Numbered from the stretch's first letter, positions 22,051 to 33,612 are shown. The stretch: 64,000 nucleotides of DNA from Pegethrix bostrychoides GSE-TBD4-15B (GCA_019359155.1 JAHHHV010000068.1:62001-126000); one strand, 5' to 3'. Program-made: numbers and translations. The notes: generated by a model not told the origin, from the letters alone.

Positions 22051-22251
22051 CTATCGCATCAGGACGCTCATGAATTTGCCCTGCGCGAACGGTGCAGGAA
22101 CCATTGGCGAGAACTGGCTGCGGTCGGTAATCATCTGCCGCACGTACATTTCGCTGATGATGTGGTTCACCTGCTCCCGCGTGCCGACAATCCAAATCTG
22201 CGCCTGATGGCCAAACGGCTCGCTCAGACGTTCGTTGAACTCTGTAGACAT
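22051..22251 (-). CDS. Small conserved-type hypothetical protein (66 aa)
   Basis: A 66-residue soluble protein beginning MSTEFNERLSEPFGH. A GAGG is found about 11 bases before the ATG. The pattern VGTREQVNHIISEMYV, followed by a Pro-rich loop and GKFMSVLMR at the end, looks like a family of short cyanobacterial proteins without known function. It lies between larB and the accessory island on the minus strand. Confidence 0.6.
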   Translation of the reverse strand: MSTEFNERLSEPFGHQAQIWIVGTREQVNHIISEMYVRQMITDRSQFSPMVPAPFAQGKFMSVLMR

Positions 22252-22614
22252 AGTATTTGCCTCAATTTTGAGTTATGGCTTTGAAAGCCTAAGGCGTTGA
22301 GTCACCTGACCACATGCGTGAACGAAGCGAGCGCGATGTAAAATCGACTCAGCCTTGCTTCCCGTTGTTGGCGGGGAGTCGGGTCAGCTGGCTAGTCGTG
22401 TGCAACCACTTCTAGTCAGCGACGCCTTAAGCTTTTGCGTGTCCTAACTGCTTCACGCAATCAGTTGGCAAATCATAAGCTGAAACTCTGGCTGAGCGCA
22501 AGTGGGGGTGGGAGAAATTTTACGTTTGGTGAGCTTTGGCTAGGCAGGTAGCTCATTTGCAGCCATCGTGCTTCTGAGACAGAGGGCAGGTTGCCTTTAG
22601 CTTCACCTGTAACG
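22252..22614. other. Non-coding stretch with an inverted repeat at the edge of the island
   Basis: No gene is supported here. An 8-bp perfect inverted repeat (TAAGGCGT at 22290-22297, ACGCCTTA at 22422-22429), which extends to about 11 bp with a mismatch, bounds a GC-rich segment of 140 bases with internal hairpin potential. This could be a small non-autonomous element, but no flanking target duplication was identified. Confidence 0.35.
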
Positions 22615-22775
22615 ATATGCGGAAAAATCTGCCTAACGGGGCAAGGAAGCGTGTTATACGGAGAGATTCTGCCTGAGTGCCGAATCTGGGGTGTTATGCC
22701 GACTCATTCTGCCTATTCAGCTACTGCGGGATCTTATGCGGAAACTTTCAGTCCATTATTAGTTATGCCGCAAAT
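22615..22775 (+). repeat. Imperfect 40-bp tandem repeat (four to five units)
   Basis: Units begin with (A/T)TATRC(G/C)G at 22615, 22654, 22694, 22734 and 22763, so spacing is 39, 40, 40 and 29 bases. The first half of each unit (TTATGCCGA...ATTCTGCCT) is better conserved than the second. The units make up most of a 97-residue open frame (22591-22884), which is therefore probably not a gene. Two units contain GTTATGC, the sequence that would complement the first base block of the attC site at 23348. Confidence 0.65.
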
Positions 22776-22917
22776 CCCTGGTAGAGAGAAGGTCCGGAAG
22801 TCAGTGATTTACCACTCAAGCAAAGAAATTGCCTTTTTGCAACGTAATTGTCAGTTTGAATCTTTTCTAAAGGATCATCGGTAATCAAAATCCGCTGGTT
22901 ATAATTAGTTCATTACC

Positions 22918-22933
22918 ACTCCTCTAGAGGAGT
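22918..22933. repeat. 16-bp perfect palindrome preceding the structured RNA
   Basis: ACTCCTCTAGAGGAGT is a perfect palindrome about 10-20 bases before the structured RNA region. It could be a regulator binding site or an element-boundary hairpin. Nothing in the sequence decides between these. Confidence 0.5.
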
Positions 22934-22940
22934 CTATAGT

Positions 22941-23310
22941 ACAAAGGTAATACCATCCTCTTCCGGGTGACAAGGCTGGGCGGTAGGTTGACTTGATGGT
23001 TCTGCTTGGATGGGGCACAGTCAGTCAATCCTAGTCCCTAAACCCGCTCCCGTGCTTCCTATGAAGGTAGACCTCTACTGGTTCACTTAATACGGAACAC
23101 GAGGTGTTATGGAGAGAGCTAAGCCAAGTGGCGGAAAGTGGGATAAGCATCCCACGCGGCCTCTTTACCGGAGGTTGAGAGTGCTTGTGCGGCGGTTACT
23201 ACCGTTCTTGCAAGCCCTTGCCGCTCTGTTCACGATTGTAAAGCTGTTAGGGTCATAGCGACTCTGATGCTATTCACATTGGAAAGGGGAGGGGGTACTC
23301 TTCCCTTTTC
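22941..23310 (+). ncRNA. Long structured RNA, possibly HEARO/omega-RNA type, without protein partner
   Basis: About 350 bases with no coding frame but dense base-pairing potential on the plus strand. ACCATCC (22952) pairs with GGATGGG (23007). GGTTGACT (22986) can pair with AGTCAATCC (23023), and because this interleaves with the first stem it forms a pseudoknot. CGTGcTTCC/GGAaCACG encloses a smaller hairpin, GTGGGAT-aagc-ATCCCAC is a perfect hairpin near 23138, and GCTTG...CAAGC near 23183 encloses CGGT/ACCG. The segment ends with a purine/pyrimidine hairpin near 23280-23310. The size, pseudoknot and general look recall HEARO (IscB-associated) RNAs common in cyanobacteria. No iscB or tnpB follows. 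A group II intron was considered, but no domain V was seen. Confidence 0.45.
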
Positions 23311-23347
23311 GCTTGTAAACCTCAAAAATGATTCGGTTGGTAGAACG

Positions 23348-23433
23348 GCATAACATAGCCTATGCAGCGGATTGATGGTGTTTGTTGTACTTCGTTTGAA
23401 GATATCTGCAACCGCTGATTTGAGTCGTTATAC
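23348..23433 (+). other. attC-like recombination site 1
   Basis: The 86-bp site starts with R'' GCATAAC (23348-23354) and ends with R' GTTATAC (23427-23433). The inner boxes CAGCGGATTG (23365-23374) and CAACCGCTG (23409-23417) pair perfectly apart from one extrahelical A, which is the hallmark of attC folding. The unpaired central spacers are 10 and 9 bases. A small hairpin (CTTC-GTTT-GAAG) lies in the variable terminal part. Its R' complements the R'' of the next site exactly, as expected for a cassette whose ends derive from one circle. Confidence 0.7.
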
Positions 23434-23462
23434 GTACAATGCAGAACTAGGGAGACTGATTA

Positions 23463-24581
23463 GTGGAATCGGCTAGATGGGATGAAACTTGGCATCGACT
23501 CAGAGAATGGACAAATGGACAAGCACCATCTGAGCGTCTAGCTGCCCAGATTTTGATTGGCGAAGGATTTAAAGAATTAGATCCAAGTCACCCTCTTGGT
23601 GGGACTGACGGAGGAAGGGATGCCATCTGCACGTACAACGAAGATATGTGGGTTATGGCTGTTTACTTTCCTCGGGGAAAGAAGAAAATCTCAGATATTA
23701 AAGCGAAGTTGCGTGCTGATGTGATGTCTGCATCCAAGCATAACCCGATAGGAATTGCTTTTGTAACCAATCAAGAGCTTACACTCACTCAACGGCAGCA
23801 ATTACGGAAGATTGCTTCACCTTTCAATCTTGAAGTTTTTCACCTTGAACGCATTACATCAGTTCTTGATTCTCCCCAAATGGCAGGGGTTAGAAAACAA
23901 TTTCTTGGAATTGAGAGCGTAGATGATATACCGATTTTAGAAGTTCAGTTTTATCAGCCAGGATCTAGACAGTCACTTGGAACAACAATAAAACTTCAGT
24001 CTATTGCTCACGGTATTCCAAATTACGGAATCCCGAATCTAGAAACGCCTCGCCAAACTTATTATGGCGGGATAACCCTTCGTCCCGGCATTATGGATGA
24101 GCTAAATCCTTCATATATGCGAGAGAAGGAACAATATGTCAGAGCCAGTGCACTTCTTCAAAAAGTCTTTCTTGGAATTCGTAATAGCAGCACTCGACTT
24201 GCTGAAGGGGTTACGCTTGAAATAGAGGGATTATTGGCTCAAGGTATTGAGGTTGCCGAAGAACTTCCACCACCACCCGTGAGGCAGCGTGTCAATAAAG
24301 TTCCGCATATTCGACCACTTTGGTGGAACTCACACATTACTCCTGATGTCGAAACATACGACGACAAATTTCGTATAACGATTCAGTTTGGCACAATTCA
24401 ACCAGGGCACATTTCAATCATGGAAGAGCCAGTTTTTCTCGGATCTAGAGAATCGACGAAACTATCGATGAATGCCCGAGTAATCGCTAACAATTTGCCC
24501 CTTCCGGCTGAATCTTCTCTCCAAATTGATTTTGATGTTATTCCTAAGCCTCCCCTAGACATTCACTTTCTCAAACAATAG
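23463..24581 (+). CDS. Restriction-endonuclease-like protein of unknown specificity (cassette gene)
   Basis: A 372-residue protein with a GTG start preceded by a GGGAG site about 8 bases upstream. Residues 20-60 show a PD-(D/E)xK-like core: LAAQILIGEGFKEL, then GGTDGGRDAI, as in Mrr-type nucleases. The third motif, normally (Q/E)xK, is not evident; the strand reads VMAVYFPRGKKK, so catalysis is uncertain. The pattern FVTNQELTLTQR and FHLERITSVLD belongs to a family seen in bacterial accessory DNA. Residues 160-372 form a second, beta-rich, unrecognised domain. It sits between two attC-like sites with AT-rich codon use unlike the backbone. A defence role is possible but only inferred. Confidence 0.75.
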   Translation: MESARWDETWHRLREWTNGQAPSERLAAQILIGEGFKELDPSHPLGGTDGGRDAICTYNEDMWVMAVYFPRGKKKISDIKAKLRADVMSASKHNPIGIAFVTNQELTLTQRQQLRKIASPFNLEVFHLERITSVLDSPQMAGVRKQFLGIESVDDIPILEVQFYQPGSRQSLGTTIKLQSIAHGIPNYGIPNLETPRQTYYGGITLRPGIMDELNPSYMREKEQYVRASALLQKVFLGIRNSSTRLAEGVTLEIEGLLAQGIEVAEELPPPPVRQRVNKVPHIRPLWWNSHITPDVETYDDKFRITIQFGTIQPGHISIMEEPVFLGSRESTKLSMNARVIANNLPLPAESSLQIDFDVIPKPPLDIHFLKQ

Positions 24582-24583
24582 AC

Positions 24584-24675
24584 GTATAACATAGCCTCTT
24601 GTATGTTGAGGGCAGTCAGTGCAACCTGATGACAGAACCCAACGGCGAATCTGGAGGCTGAGGGTTTAGTTATCT
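24584..24675 (+). other. attC-like recombination site 2
   Basis: R'' GTATAAC begins 3 bases after the stop codon of the cassette gene and R' GTTATCT ends at 24675. Inner pairing is AGCCTC (24593-24598) with GAGGCT (24654-24659), and GTTGAGGG (24605-24612) with CCCAAC (24638-24643), leaving one extrahelical A. A 69-base part (24587-24655) recurs at 26758-26826 with only three differences, so attC2 and attC3 are of one type. R' deviates from the GTTRRRY consensus at two positions. Confidence 0.7.
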
Positions 24676-24705
24676 TTTTACTCTCTCCCGGCTTACATAG
24701 ATTCT

Positions 24706-25758
24706 TTAGGTATCAACACTCTCTGCCCTACTAATCATCTGTGCAACATCTTTACTAGCATTTATGCTCATGATTTGTATTTCTGGATGTTGTTTCTTGA
24801 AAACCCGGAAAACTTCATCTGCAAATGCTTGTCCTATCGCTTCTACTCCAGAAAAATCAAAGACCACGACTCTAAATTTATCAACACCAGCTAGTAGCCT
24901 TTTTGCTTGCGAACGTGATACTAATCTTTCATCACCATATTGAGCTAAACGAACAGGTACTACTGTTTTCGTAAAAGCATAGTCGTCACCTGACGAGAAA
25001 CTATCAAATACCTGTTTAGAAGTTCTGGATGTATTATTATTCAATTTCATAAAAACAGTTGTTCCAGATTGGAAGCCATCTCTCTCGCAAATCCAATCTT
25101 CCGCTTTGTTGAACTCATGCGAGAAATAGACACTACCAGACAGTATTGCAAATTCATCAAACATACGTGACGTAAAAAATATACCTTGACCACTATGACG
25201 ATCTGGGTCAGTTGTCAGTTTACCTTTTGCTAACTCAAGAACCGCGTGGCGCTCGTCGTGTAGTTGTAATGCTCTCTGGATCTTCTTGAAAATTCCTTCT
25301 CCGTCATCATGAATAATTATTTGAGTGTCAACCGCTGTTTTCTCTAGTTGAACAGTAACTGTCGTTCCAGATGAGTGATCTATAGCATTATTCAACATTT
25401 CAGTAAATCCATAAATCCAAATATCTTTGACATTATCAGGTAGGTCAACCATCAAGGATTTTATATCAGAATCCCAAACAACATCTTCTTCAAGCTTGTT
25501 AGCTAGCTGATATTTTTGCATCCATTCAACTAATGGATGTAGGTAATAATTTCTATTCTTTGTAGAGCCTTTAACTACAATTGCTTTTTGTTCAACAAGA
25601 CGTTGCATATGTTTATTGATAGCCTGCCTAGTAATACCGAATTCTTGAGATGTCAAAGCAACAACATCTCTTGGATGCTCTTCTACATTCGTCAGGATAA
25701 ACTGGCGAATCTGCTCACCACGCCTACGAACTCTTGACACTAGCCCCTCCATCGTCAA
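24706..25758 (-). CDS. Winged-helix, HATPase and STAS-like (DUF4325) regulator
   Basis: A 350-residue three-domain protein. Residues 10-70 form a winged helix (FGITRQAINKHMQRLVEQKAI). Residues about 105-240 form a GHKL ATPase with FTEMLNNAIDHS (N box), IIIHDDGEGIF (G1) and HSGQGIFFTSRMFDEF (G2), but with no histidine-phosphotransfer helix. Residues 265-345 are a STAS-like DUF4325 domain (FRVVVFDFSGVEAIGQAFADEVFRVF). The mix of an anti-sigma-type ATPase and an antagonist-type STAS fold in one DNA-binding protein suggests a self-contained switch. It is transcribed against the cassette direction and ends 31 bases from attC2. Target genes are unknown. Confidence 0.82.
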   Translation of the reverse strand: MTMEGLVSRVRRRGEQIRQFILTNVEEHPRDVVALTSQEFGITRQAINKHMQRLVEQKAIVVKGSTKNRNYYLHPLVEWMQKYQLANKLEEDVVWDSDIKSLMVDLPDNVKDIWIYGFTEMLNNAIDHSSGTTVTVQLEKTAVDTQIIIHDDGEGIFKKIQRALQLHDERHAVLELAKGKLTTDPDRHSGQGIFFTSRMFDEFAILSGSVYFSHEFNKAEDWICERDGFQSGTTVFMKLNNNTSRTSKQVFDSFSSGDDYAFTKTVVPVRLAQYGDERLVSRSQAKRLLAGVDKFRVVVFDFSGVEAIGQAFADEVFRVFKKQHPEIQIMSINASKDVAQMISRAESVDT

Positions 25759-25940
25759 CTATTCGTCCCATCATTGTCAACCTTATGAGATTCATTGTCA
25801 ACCTGATTGCTTTAGTTTGAAGATTTAGTTCAGAAGTGAGTTTTGTAATCGCCTTTTAGTAGAGAATCTTCTCAAGCAAGCGTCATAAATTACTTTTGCC
25901 GATTAGTGACAATCTTCCGGTCTTTTACATTGAGACAATT

Positions 25941-26711
25941 ATGAAGCGAACTCCAAGCCAGCAAAATATTTCACGAAGAAGCCTTCTTCAATTCGGGGCA
26001 GGACTTATTGGCACAAGCTCTCTCACAGCTTGGTTGGGCACGGGTGCATTAGCTCAAACATTTGAGTATCGGGCATCTCATAAAAATCAAGACCAACTTA
26101 TTGCTGCTGTTCCAGACGGTGCTCATGCTGTGAGCGGTTTGACTCACGATGAAGCATTGGCAAAACTGATGGAAGGAAACCAGCGATTCGTCGCTAGAAG
26201 GCGGCTCAATCCTCATCAAGATTTTGCTCGCATTACTGAAGTTGCAGCAGGACAAGCCCCCTTTGCCGCTATTTTAAGCTGTGCAGACTCACGAGTAGTG
26301 CCGGAGATTGCGTTTGATCAGGGGATCGGCGATCTCTTTGTAGTCCGGGTTGCTGGCAATATTGCTATCACCGAAGATATTGCTAGTGAAGAGTATGCGG
26401 TCAGTGTCCTAAAAGCACCCCTACTGATGGTTTTAGGACATGAACGATGTGGAGCCGTGGATGCGGCTCTAAAAGGGGGTGAATTCCCAGGTGTCATTGA
26501 ATCGCTTGTATTTGCAATTCGACCAGCAGTTCAAGCTTCGGAGGGAGAATCGGGCGATCGCCTCACAAACGCGGTCAAGGCAAATGTGCGATTACAAGTA
26601 CAACGACTACAAACCTCTTCTGTGATTGCTTCAGCAGTGCAAGAAGGAAAACTCAAGATCGTTGGTGCATACTACGATCTCGATACGGGTGAAATTAGTT
26701 TGGTCAGCTAG
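25941..26711 (+). CDS. Beta-type carbonic anhydrase with Tat signal
   Basis: A 256-residue enzyme from the ATG at 25941, which places a twin-arginine signal (NISRRSLLQFGAGLIG) near the N-terminus; an earlier start at 25896 adds 15 residues. Zinc ligands are visible in SCADSRV (Cys and Asp-Arg dyad) and LGHERCGAV (His and Cys). It resembles EcaB-type extracellular enzymes that interconvert CO2 and bicarbonate in the periplasm. It diverges from the wHTH-HATPase-STAS regulator with a 182-base spacer, so the regulator might control it. It contains one HIP1 palindrome near 26557. It ends about 45 bases before attC3. Confidence 0.88.
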   Translation: MKRTPSQQNISRRSLLQFGAGLIGTSSLTAWLGTGALAQTFEYRASHKNQDQLIAAVPDGAHAVSGLTHDEALAKLMEGNQRFVARRRLNPHQDFARITEVAAGQAPFAAILSCADSRVVPEIAFDQGIGDLFVVRVAGNIAITEDIASEEYAVSVLKAPLLMVLGHERCGAVDAALKGGEFPGVIESLVFAIRPAVQASEGESGDRLTNAVKANVRLQVQRLQTSSVIASAVQEGKLKIVGAYYDLDTGEISLVS

Positions 26712-26754
26712 GATGACATCATTAGATCACATGTTGCTGAAAGGCATAATTGCC

Positions 26755-26826
26755 AGCTAACATAATCTCTTGTATGTTGAGGGCAGGCAGTGCAACCTGA
26801 TGACAGAACCCAACGGCGAATCTGGA
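26755..26826 (+). other. attC-like site 3, right end lost
   Basis: R'' AGCTAAC (26755-26761) is followed by a near copy of attC2 (66 of 69 bases identical from 26758 to 26826), including GTTGAGGG/CCCAAC pairing. After GGA at 26826 the similarity to attC2 stops, and no convincing R' follows. R'' differs from the complement of attC2's R' (AGATAAC) at one base, so a cassette from 24670 to 26754 is plausible. The loss fits disruption by the transposase remnant downstream. Confidence 0.55.
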
Positions 26827-26995
26827 TAGCCTCTCATGCGCTTGACGCTGTGCCTCAGATTTTAGATCCCGACTGGGTTTTGTAACGACTATGCACTGAA
26901 AGTGCGCCAAGGGAAAGCCCAACTCATCCTACTCCAGCAGAAAATTATCTCGCTCCTGATTCGATGGATTCCGGTGATGCTCCAAATACTCACCT

Positions 26996-27154
26996 ACCAA
27001 CTCCTGTGACAAGGCGCTTTACTGCGAGCGCAACCGAGTGGAGCGGTGGTTCAACCGGCTCAAGCCGTATCGTCGGATAGCGACTGGCTATGAGAATAAC
27101 GGCCAGAACTACCCGGCTATGCTGACTTTAGCCTCTATTCTGATGTGGTTATAG
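26996..27154 (+). pseudogene. C-terminal remnant of an IS5-family transposase
   Basis: The frame reads DKALYCERNRVERWFNRLK and then YRRIATGYEN, with the ending LTLASILMWL and a TAG stop. This is the typical C-terminus of IS5-type transposases (short-ORF subgroups), including the catalytic glutamate region (NRVERW). The N-terminal two thirds are missing and no start is available. A possible right end lies near 27160-27170, but no matching left inverted repeat was found. It marks past IS activity at the right edge of the island. Confidence 0.75.
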
Positions 27155-32589: not shown

Positions 32590-33612
32590 ATGCAAACCTA
32601 TGCGAATTCAACGGTGAATTATGACTGGTGGGCAGGTAACGCTCGATTTACCAAGCTTTCCGGGCTGTTTATTTCAGCGCATGTGGCTCAAGCTGCCCTC
32701 ATTACCTTTTGGGCGGGCGCATTCACGCTGTTTGAGCTGTCGCGGTTTGACCCCAGCCTACCCATGGGCGAACAGGGGCTAATTTTACTGCCGCATCTGG
32801 CGACATTGGGCTTGGGCATTGGTCAAGGCGGTGCGGTCGTGGATACCTACCCCATGTTCGTCGTCGGCGTGGTGCATTTGATCTCCTCAGCCGTACTGGG
32901 TGCTGGAGCGCTGTTTCACACTTTCAAGGCTCCCGAAGATCTGAGTCAGGCGACTGGGCAAGCGCGCAAGTTTCACTTCCAGTGGGGCGATCCGAAGCAA
33001 CTCGGCCTGATTTTGGGACATCATCTGCTGTTTTTGGGCGCAGGGGCGCTGCTGCTGGTCTTCTGGGCTGGCAGTCACGGCCTTTACGATCCGGCAGTTG
33101 GCGCAGTCCGGGCTGTGACAAACCCCACGCTCGATCCGCTGGTGATCTACGGCTACCAGACGCATTTTGCTAGCGTCGACAATCTGGAAGATATCATTGG
33201 CGGCCATGTTTACGTTGGGGTGATGCTAATTGGCGGCGGCATCTGGCATATTCTGGTACCGCCACTGGGCTGGGCGAAGAAAGTGCTGGACTTTTCGGGT
33301 GAGGCGATTTTGTCTTATTCGCTGGGCGGGATTGCGCTAGCGGGCTTTGTAGCGGCTTATTTTTGCGCGGTGAATACCTTCGCCTATCCAGTGGAGTTTT
33401 ACGGTGCACCCCTGGAAGTTAAGCTTGGCATCGCGCCCTATTTTGCCGACACGGTCGAGCTACCGCTGGGCGCTCACAGCTCGCGGGCTTGGTTAGCGAA
33501 CGCTCACTTTTTCTTGGCGTTCTTCTTCCTGCAAGGCCACCTCTGGCACGCACTCAGAGCGATGGGGTTTGACTTCCGTCGGGTCGAGAAAGCGCTGGCT
33601 AGCGAATCGTAG
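32590..33612 (+). CDS. isiA: Iron-stress chlorophyll-binding protein IsiA (CP43')
   Basis: Six-helix chlorophyll protein that forms antenna rings around photosystem I under iron limitation and quenches excess energy, 340 residues. The start [20 protein letters not shown] and the helix histidines (for example [14 protein letters not shown] and [10 protein letters not shown]) are typical of the Pcb/IsiA family. The large lumenal loop of CP43 is absent, as expected. The ATG at 32590 is preceded by AAGGAG at 9 bases, so the overlapping TTG start 3 bases earlier is unlikely. It is followed by a strong hairpin and isiB. Confidence 0.96.

Follow-up and report, generated by a model that had tools for sequence, protein, structure and literature searches.

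A probable chromosomal integron without its integrase gene, one of many dispersed platforms in the cyanobacterium Pegethrix bostrychoides

A stretch of the genome of the cyanobacterium Pegethrix bostrychoides GSE-TBD4-15B is very probably a true integron, that is, a gene-capture platform, without its recombinase gene. The window (the whole stretch of DNA analysed, 64 kb) corresponds to C70:62001-126000 of a 5.72-Mb draft genome, here G000, assembled in 92 contigs and with an estimated completeness of 99.97%. Within it, the interval 22615-27154 had been described from the sequence alone as an integrase-less array with three attC sites, of the kind known as CALIN, a term for clusters of attC lacking an integron-integrase that are read as degraded integrons (PMC9024848). 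As an array the interval holds in substance, but the attI lying inside it had been overlooked; a true attC, the cassette register and the absence of IntI support the CALIN label, but only one attC scores in the window, fewer than the at least two that IntegronFinder 2 asks of a CALIN and that other contigs of G000 do contain. The attI and the genome context alone make the reading of the window as an array secure. The platform comprises the following features, numbered from the first base of the window:

22051-22251, minus strand: open reading frame of 66 amino acids (MSTEFNERL..SVLMR, the "A gene"), at the position that would be downstream of intI
22252-22562, no strand assigned: conserved region from the 66-aa gene to the attI, collinear in many copies
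22615-22764, plus strand: attI-like site of repeated imperfect palindromes ending in TAGTT, with the cross-over between G22762 and T22763

The layout of this attI block is the same as that just upstream of the full intI genes of G185, G174 and G011. In G000, eight copies of the block have been found, including one on contig C75, and all of them (seven aligned, the C75 copy read separately) are collinear as far as TAGTT and split exactly after G|TT into different cassettes. Another type of attI is present in about ten copies, most of which are likewise collinear and then diverge after GTT. Counting both types, about 18 attI sites are found in this genome, most of them followed by different captured DNA. 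The window thus holds one of the marks of an integron platform, an attI with its cross-over at G|TT. The sequence-only reading had proposed a presence/absence comparison at this very position, and the divergence is indeed precise, the comparison being between paralogous attI sites of one genome and not between strains. Cyanobacterial attI regions are long runs of palindromic repeats with a period of about 40-44 bp, as seen in L091:14500-14970, L088:14750-15275, L085:17250-17830 and the window at 22615-22764; the attI of class 1 integrons is shorter.

The first cassette and its recombination site lie directly after the attI:

22763-23427, plus strand: cassette 1, with TTATGC as its first bases, which complement the R'' of the cassette's attC (site 1)
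23348-23433, plus strand: site 1, an attC with R'' GCATAAC (23348-23354) and R' GTTATAC (23427-23433)

Site 1 has the structure diagnostic of an attC, an L''/L' stem with one extrahelical base, and is the only match on either strand of the window to a strict attC pattern, in which R'' and R' match at no fewer than 6 of 7 positions and the L'' side of the inner stem carries precisely one extra base. This is a relaxed pattern, used after a tighter one with fixed spacer and bulge positions had missed every real site; it arises by chance about once per 335 kb of random sequence, or about 0.2 times per 64 kb, and counts for little alone. Two covariance models were built for the present analysis, neither being the published attC_4, and their E-values are rough. 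R1 derives from nine attC near complete integron integrases of four other cyanobacterial genomes, its seed having been checked by hand because self-BLAST of the integrase loci mixed attC with unrelated repeats; the broader R2 derives from 88 attC sites, all outside G000. For site 1, R1 gives 55.2 bits at E 9.5e-12; the score under R2 is 56.8 bits, at E 1e-13. In the 88-site alignment, the L''/L' helix shows changes on both sides in 11 of 12 pairs and 90% of its cells are paired, while overall pairing across the structure falls from 86% to 25-38% when the partner strand is slid along the alignment. Twenty genomes of the phylum that are negative for IntI had been intended as a negative control for R2; 12 of them gave at least one match at E <=0.01, most of them strong, so that attC without an integrase are common in cyanobacteria, and only the eight silent genomes serve as the control, showing that R2 does not fire everywhere.

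The chance rate of the strict pattern, together with the fact that sites 2 and 3 (see below) are a repeat without an attC fold, could suggest that chance palindromes or ordinary dispersed repeats have been mistaken for integron sites. This explanation is highly improbable, given an E-value of about 1e-11 for site 1, an attI that matches those of complete integrons, the divergence at G|TT in many copies, the register described below and the silence of R2 in those eight genomes. It is refuted for site 1 and the attI, and would be possible only in respect of the core that sites 2 and 3 share. Cassette 1 has no evident gene of at least 60 aa, and an Rfam search of the platform and cassette 1 gave no match; elsewhere in the window, the IsrR antisense RNA, which regulates isiA, was found at 32983-33157 on the minus strand (RF01419, 72.6 bits).

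Further evidence for the integron comes from the register of the cassettes. Entry of a cassette as a circle should leave the R'' of its attC complementary to the R' ahead of the cassette, not to the R' behind it. Among 40 adjacent attC pairs from cyanobacterial arrays of several genomes, each R'' agreed with the preceding R' at 3.43 of the 4 outer bases on average, against 2.23 for its own R' and 2.15 after shuffling, and a value as high as the observed one did not arise in any of 10,000 shuffles. In the window, the attI (GTTATGC) is in exact register with the R'' of site 1, and the R' of site 1 is the exact complement of the R'' of site 2 (GTATAAC), as had been noticed from the sequence alone. 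The R' of site 2 (GTTATCT) agrees with the R'' of site 3 (AGCTAAC) at 3 of 4 bases. From these boxes, three cassettes can be delimited, at 22763-23427, 23428-24669 and 24670 to about 26826. When nine attI platforms were compared with the nearest attC found, five were in exact register, one agreed at 3/4 and three (L108, L190 and L199) at 1-2/4; the search possibly missed the true first attC of these three, which nevertheless count against the integron reading.

The two remaining sites proposed as attC are of a different nature:

24584-24675, plus strand: site 2, with R'' GTATAAC (24584-24590) and R' GTTATCT (24669-24675), in cassette register but with a core that is not an attC hairpin
26755-26826, plus strand: site 3, with R'' AGCTAAC (26755-26761) followed by the same 69-nt core as in site 2, and no R'

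The core shared by sites 2 and 3 does measure 69 nt with three differences (95.65% identity), as first described. On the other hand, the claim of three attC sites and its check by covariance model succeed for site 1 only, at about 1e-11, since both R1 and R2, even when run without any filters, leave sites 2 and 3 unscored. The inner boxes with a single extrahelical base, attributed to sites 1 and 2 alike, are likewise present in site 1 and not in site 2, where the predicted fold has a lopsided 6-bp inner stem with spacers of 2 and 9 nt. Sites 2 and 3 both resemble cassette ends that have decayed or are composite, with only their outer boxes retained. A second interpretation, to which we give somewhat less than an even chance, is that a short mobile element or repeat of separate origin has inserted into attC sites or taken their place, only the R'' boxes being original. 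It is favoured by the presence of one core, lacking the attC fold, at two places in the same array, by the recurrence of this core at 93% identity, together with the 3' flank of site 3, at the end of the array on C45 and in part on C92, and by a neighbouring site of the array on C75 that has the bases after R'' in common with sites 2 and 3 but not the core. However, the observed copies of the core stand at cassette ends and in the orientation of the array, as attC should, and no good copy was found outside cassette ends; a degenerate pattern of the core also had no match in a public genome collection, which may omit G000 and its nearest relatives. Under either interpretation, it counts against the integron reading that only one of the three sites is a proper attC and that the later two cassette ends are recognised by nothing more than their outer boxes and the register.

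Cassette 2 and the genes of the second and third cassettes are as follows:

23428-24669, plus strand: cassette 2, starting after G23427
23463-24581, plus strand: gene for a 372-aa protein in cassette 2, with its stop codon 2 bases ahead of the R'' of site 2
24706-25758, minus strand, opposite to the array: gene for a 350-aa protein with HATPase and DUF4325 domains, in cassette 3
25896-26711, plus strand: beta-carbonic anhydrase gene (Pro_CA) in cassette 3, with a likely start at 25944

The N-terminal half of the 372-aa protein looks like a restriction-type nuclease, judging from its motifs only, and the protein has no significant library match. Six homologues were found in 290 other genomes of the class, sporadically and in other families, and three of the six genes have an attC immediately after them in the same orientation; the other genomes of its own family that were searched contained no homologue. 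At about 2.1 kb, cassette 3 is of unusual length, and its two genes run in opposite directions, both of which are further points against the integron reading. Just after the array, at about 27007-27153 on the plus strand, a weak match to DDE_Tnp_1_2 (the C-terminal end of a DDE transposase), below the cut-off, is probably the remnant of an insertion sequence. In other arrays of G000, the cassette genes include DUF5996, TMEM175, GST, chlorite-dismutase-like and glyoxalase genes.

No integrase gene adjoins the attI of the window, the other mark of a complete platform. In relatives, the region matching 22252-22562 sits between the 66-aa gene and the 3' end of intI, and it is intI that is deleted in the window. 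The statement that the window has no tyrosine recombinase is borne out as regards integron integrases, and a search of the whole genome with IntI matched only C75, C30 and C48. No intact IntI was found in the draft assembly of G000, only a 77-aa IntI fragment and generic tyrosine-recombinase matches. The fragment, on C75, is an N-terminal remnant of 77 residues (E 2.7e-28, 72% identical to the IntI of G396) and the sole clear integron-type match in the genome; it adjoins a copy of the same attI and ends, truncated, at the start of the region upstream of the 66-aa gene. At L014:8674-9021, where an N-terminal IntI remnant is fused with the sequence upstream of the 66-aa gene, the adjacent array has four good attC and DUF5996, TMEM175, GST and chlorite-dismutase-like cassettes. 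Among 19 near genomes, chiefly members of the same family, 12 have full IntI above the curated cut-off, compared with IntI in 22 of 386 genomes drawn across the phylum; among congenerics, intI is full in Elainella saxicola E1 (G386) and present as long fragments at contig edges in G387 and G389. The region might still be active if an intact integrase in an unassembled part of the genome shuffled the dispersed attI and attC sites in trans. We consider this unlikely: a draft of 92 contigs may hide an intI, congenerics do retain full or partial genes and the first cassettes differ from attI to attI, but the near completeness of the genome contrasts with the IntI matches listed above, and sites 2 and 3 look decayed.

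The 66-aa gene is itself of interest. About 40 copies are present in G000 and about 60 in Elainella saxicola E1, and the family corresponds to no named family in Pfam, NCBIfam or PHROGs. In 11 of the 14 intI loci of the family of genomes, it follows intI on the same strand at a distance of about 350 bp (294-414 bp), a linkage far from chance since there are at most about 60 copies per 6-9 Mb. The copies have diverged under constraint (dN/dS about 0.12, dS about 0.76), and 18 of 25 copies in G000 and 54 of 78 elsewhere carry a strong terminator-like hairpin past the stop codon, the hairpins being mostly unrelated in sequence. These same features rule out a mobile element as the origin of the high-copy 510-bp repeat (22051-22562) and fit an old dispersed gene family. 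Most of the copies in Elainella saxicola E1 have no attC within 4 kb, so that the gene is not exclusive to integrons. Structure prediction reached a middling pLDDT of 71 and gave no fold match; as a guess, the product could be a small DNA-binding or regulatory protein.

These observations can be joined in a scheme, with recombination read from the sequence. The locus would once have been a gene-capture platform made up of the 66-aa gene, an integrase gene, the attI and cassettes. Deletion of the integrase gene would have joined the 66-aa gene almost directly to the attI. The cassettes would have entered as circles through recombination between attI and attC at G22762|T22763, probably by an integrase of the close-relative type, which may have acted in trans on all copies of the platform. 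Cassette 1 and the gene-bearing cassette 2 are still in perfect register, whereas the later sites would have decayed, and the array would now be static unless an integrase were supplied. With the platform occurring about 18 times in G000 with different cassettes, the window would hold one of many dispersed remnants, and the stretch as a whole is best described, with high confidence, as a degenerate chromosomal integron. At the genome scale, R1 finds 29 attC at E <=0.01 on about 20 contigs of G000, the 14 other genomes of the family that were tried all have 8 to 66 attC at E <=0.001, and the single-contig relative G391 has 50 attC sites in 12 separate clusters.

The superintegron of Vibrio is a single long array at a single attI. 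It resembles G000 in having many attC in one genome and cassettes in register, but G000 differs in its many short arrays and many attI. The resemblance to CALIN (PMC9024848) lies in attC and cassettes without a nearby integrase, whereas the window keeps the attI and the place of the lost integrase, and has one good attC against the two of the rule and about 29 genome-wide. The idea that the array would newly link integron-type exchange to cyanobacteria does not survive, as cyanobacteria have been listed among integron carriers (PMC2426708, of 2008; PMC8618304) and are a taxon with a dedicated attC covariance model (PMC8352920). The sedentary chromosomal integrons of cyanobacteria described in these works share with the present case the phylum, the IntI family TIGR02249, the attC type and an attI beside intI; the about 18 dispersed attI and the intI-linked 66-aa gene of G000 were not found described there. 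More than one IntI has been reported in 22% of IntI-bearing genomes (PMC9024848). A partial coverage of the literature yielded no account of a genome with about 18 attI platforms or of an intI-linked 66-aa gene, and, as far as could be found, the many dispersed attI platforms per genome and the conserved 66-aa gene near intI are new.

A more far-reaching proposal, advanced only tentatively and as rather doubtful, is that, for this family, the integron would be a system of many dispersed copies: a single type of platform (66-aa gene, intI and attI) would have been copied to many chromosomal sites, most copies having since lost intI, with all the attI arrays served in trans by few or no integrases, and the 66-aa protein, linked to intI and under purifying selection, would be a working part, for example a DNA-binding or directionality factor. 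The occurrence of about 18 attI and about 29 attC in one genome without an intact integrase is less expected than integrons in cyanobacteria as such, and the intI-linked 66-aa gene offers a candidate component open to direct testing. Should integrases serve many attI in trans, the integron would amount to a means of genome-wide gene shuffling and not to one array with one promoter.
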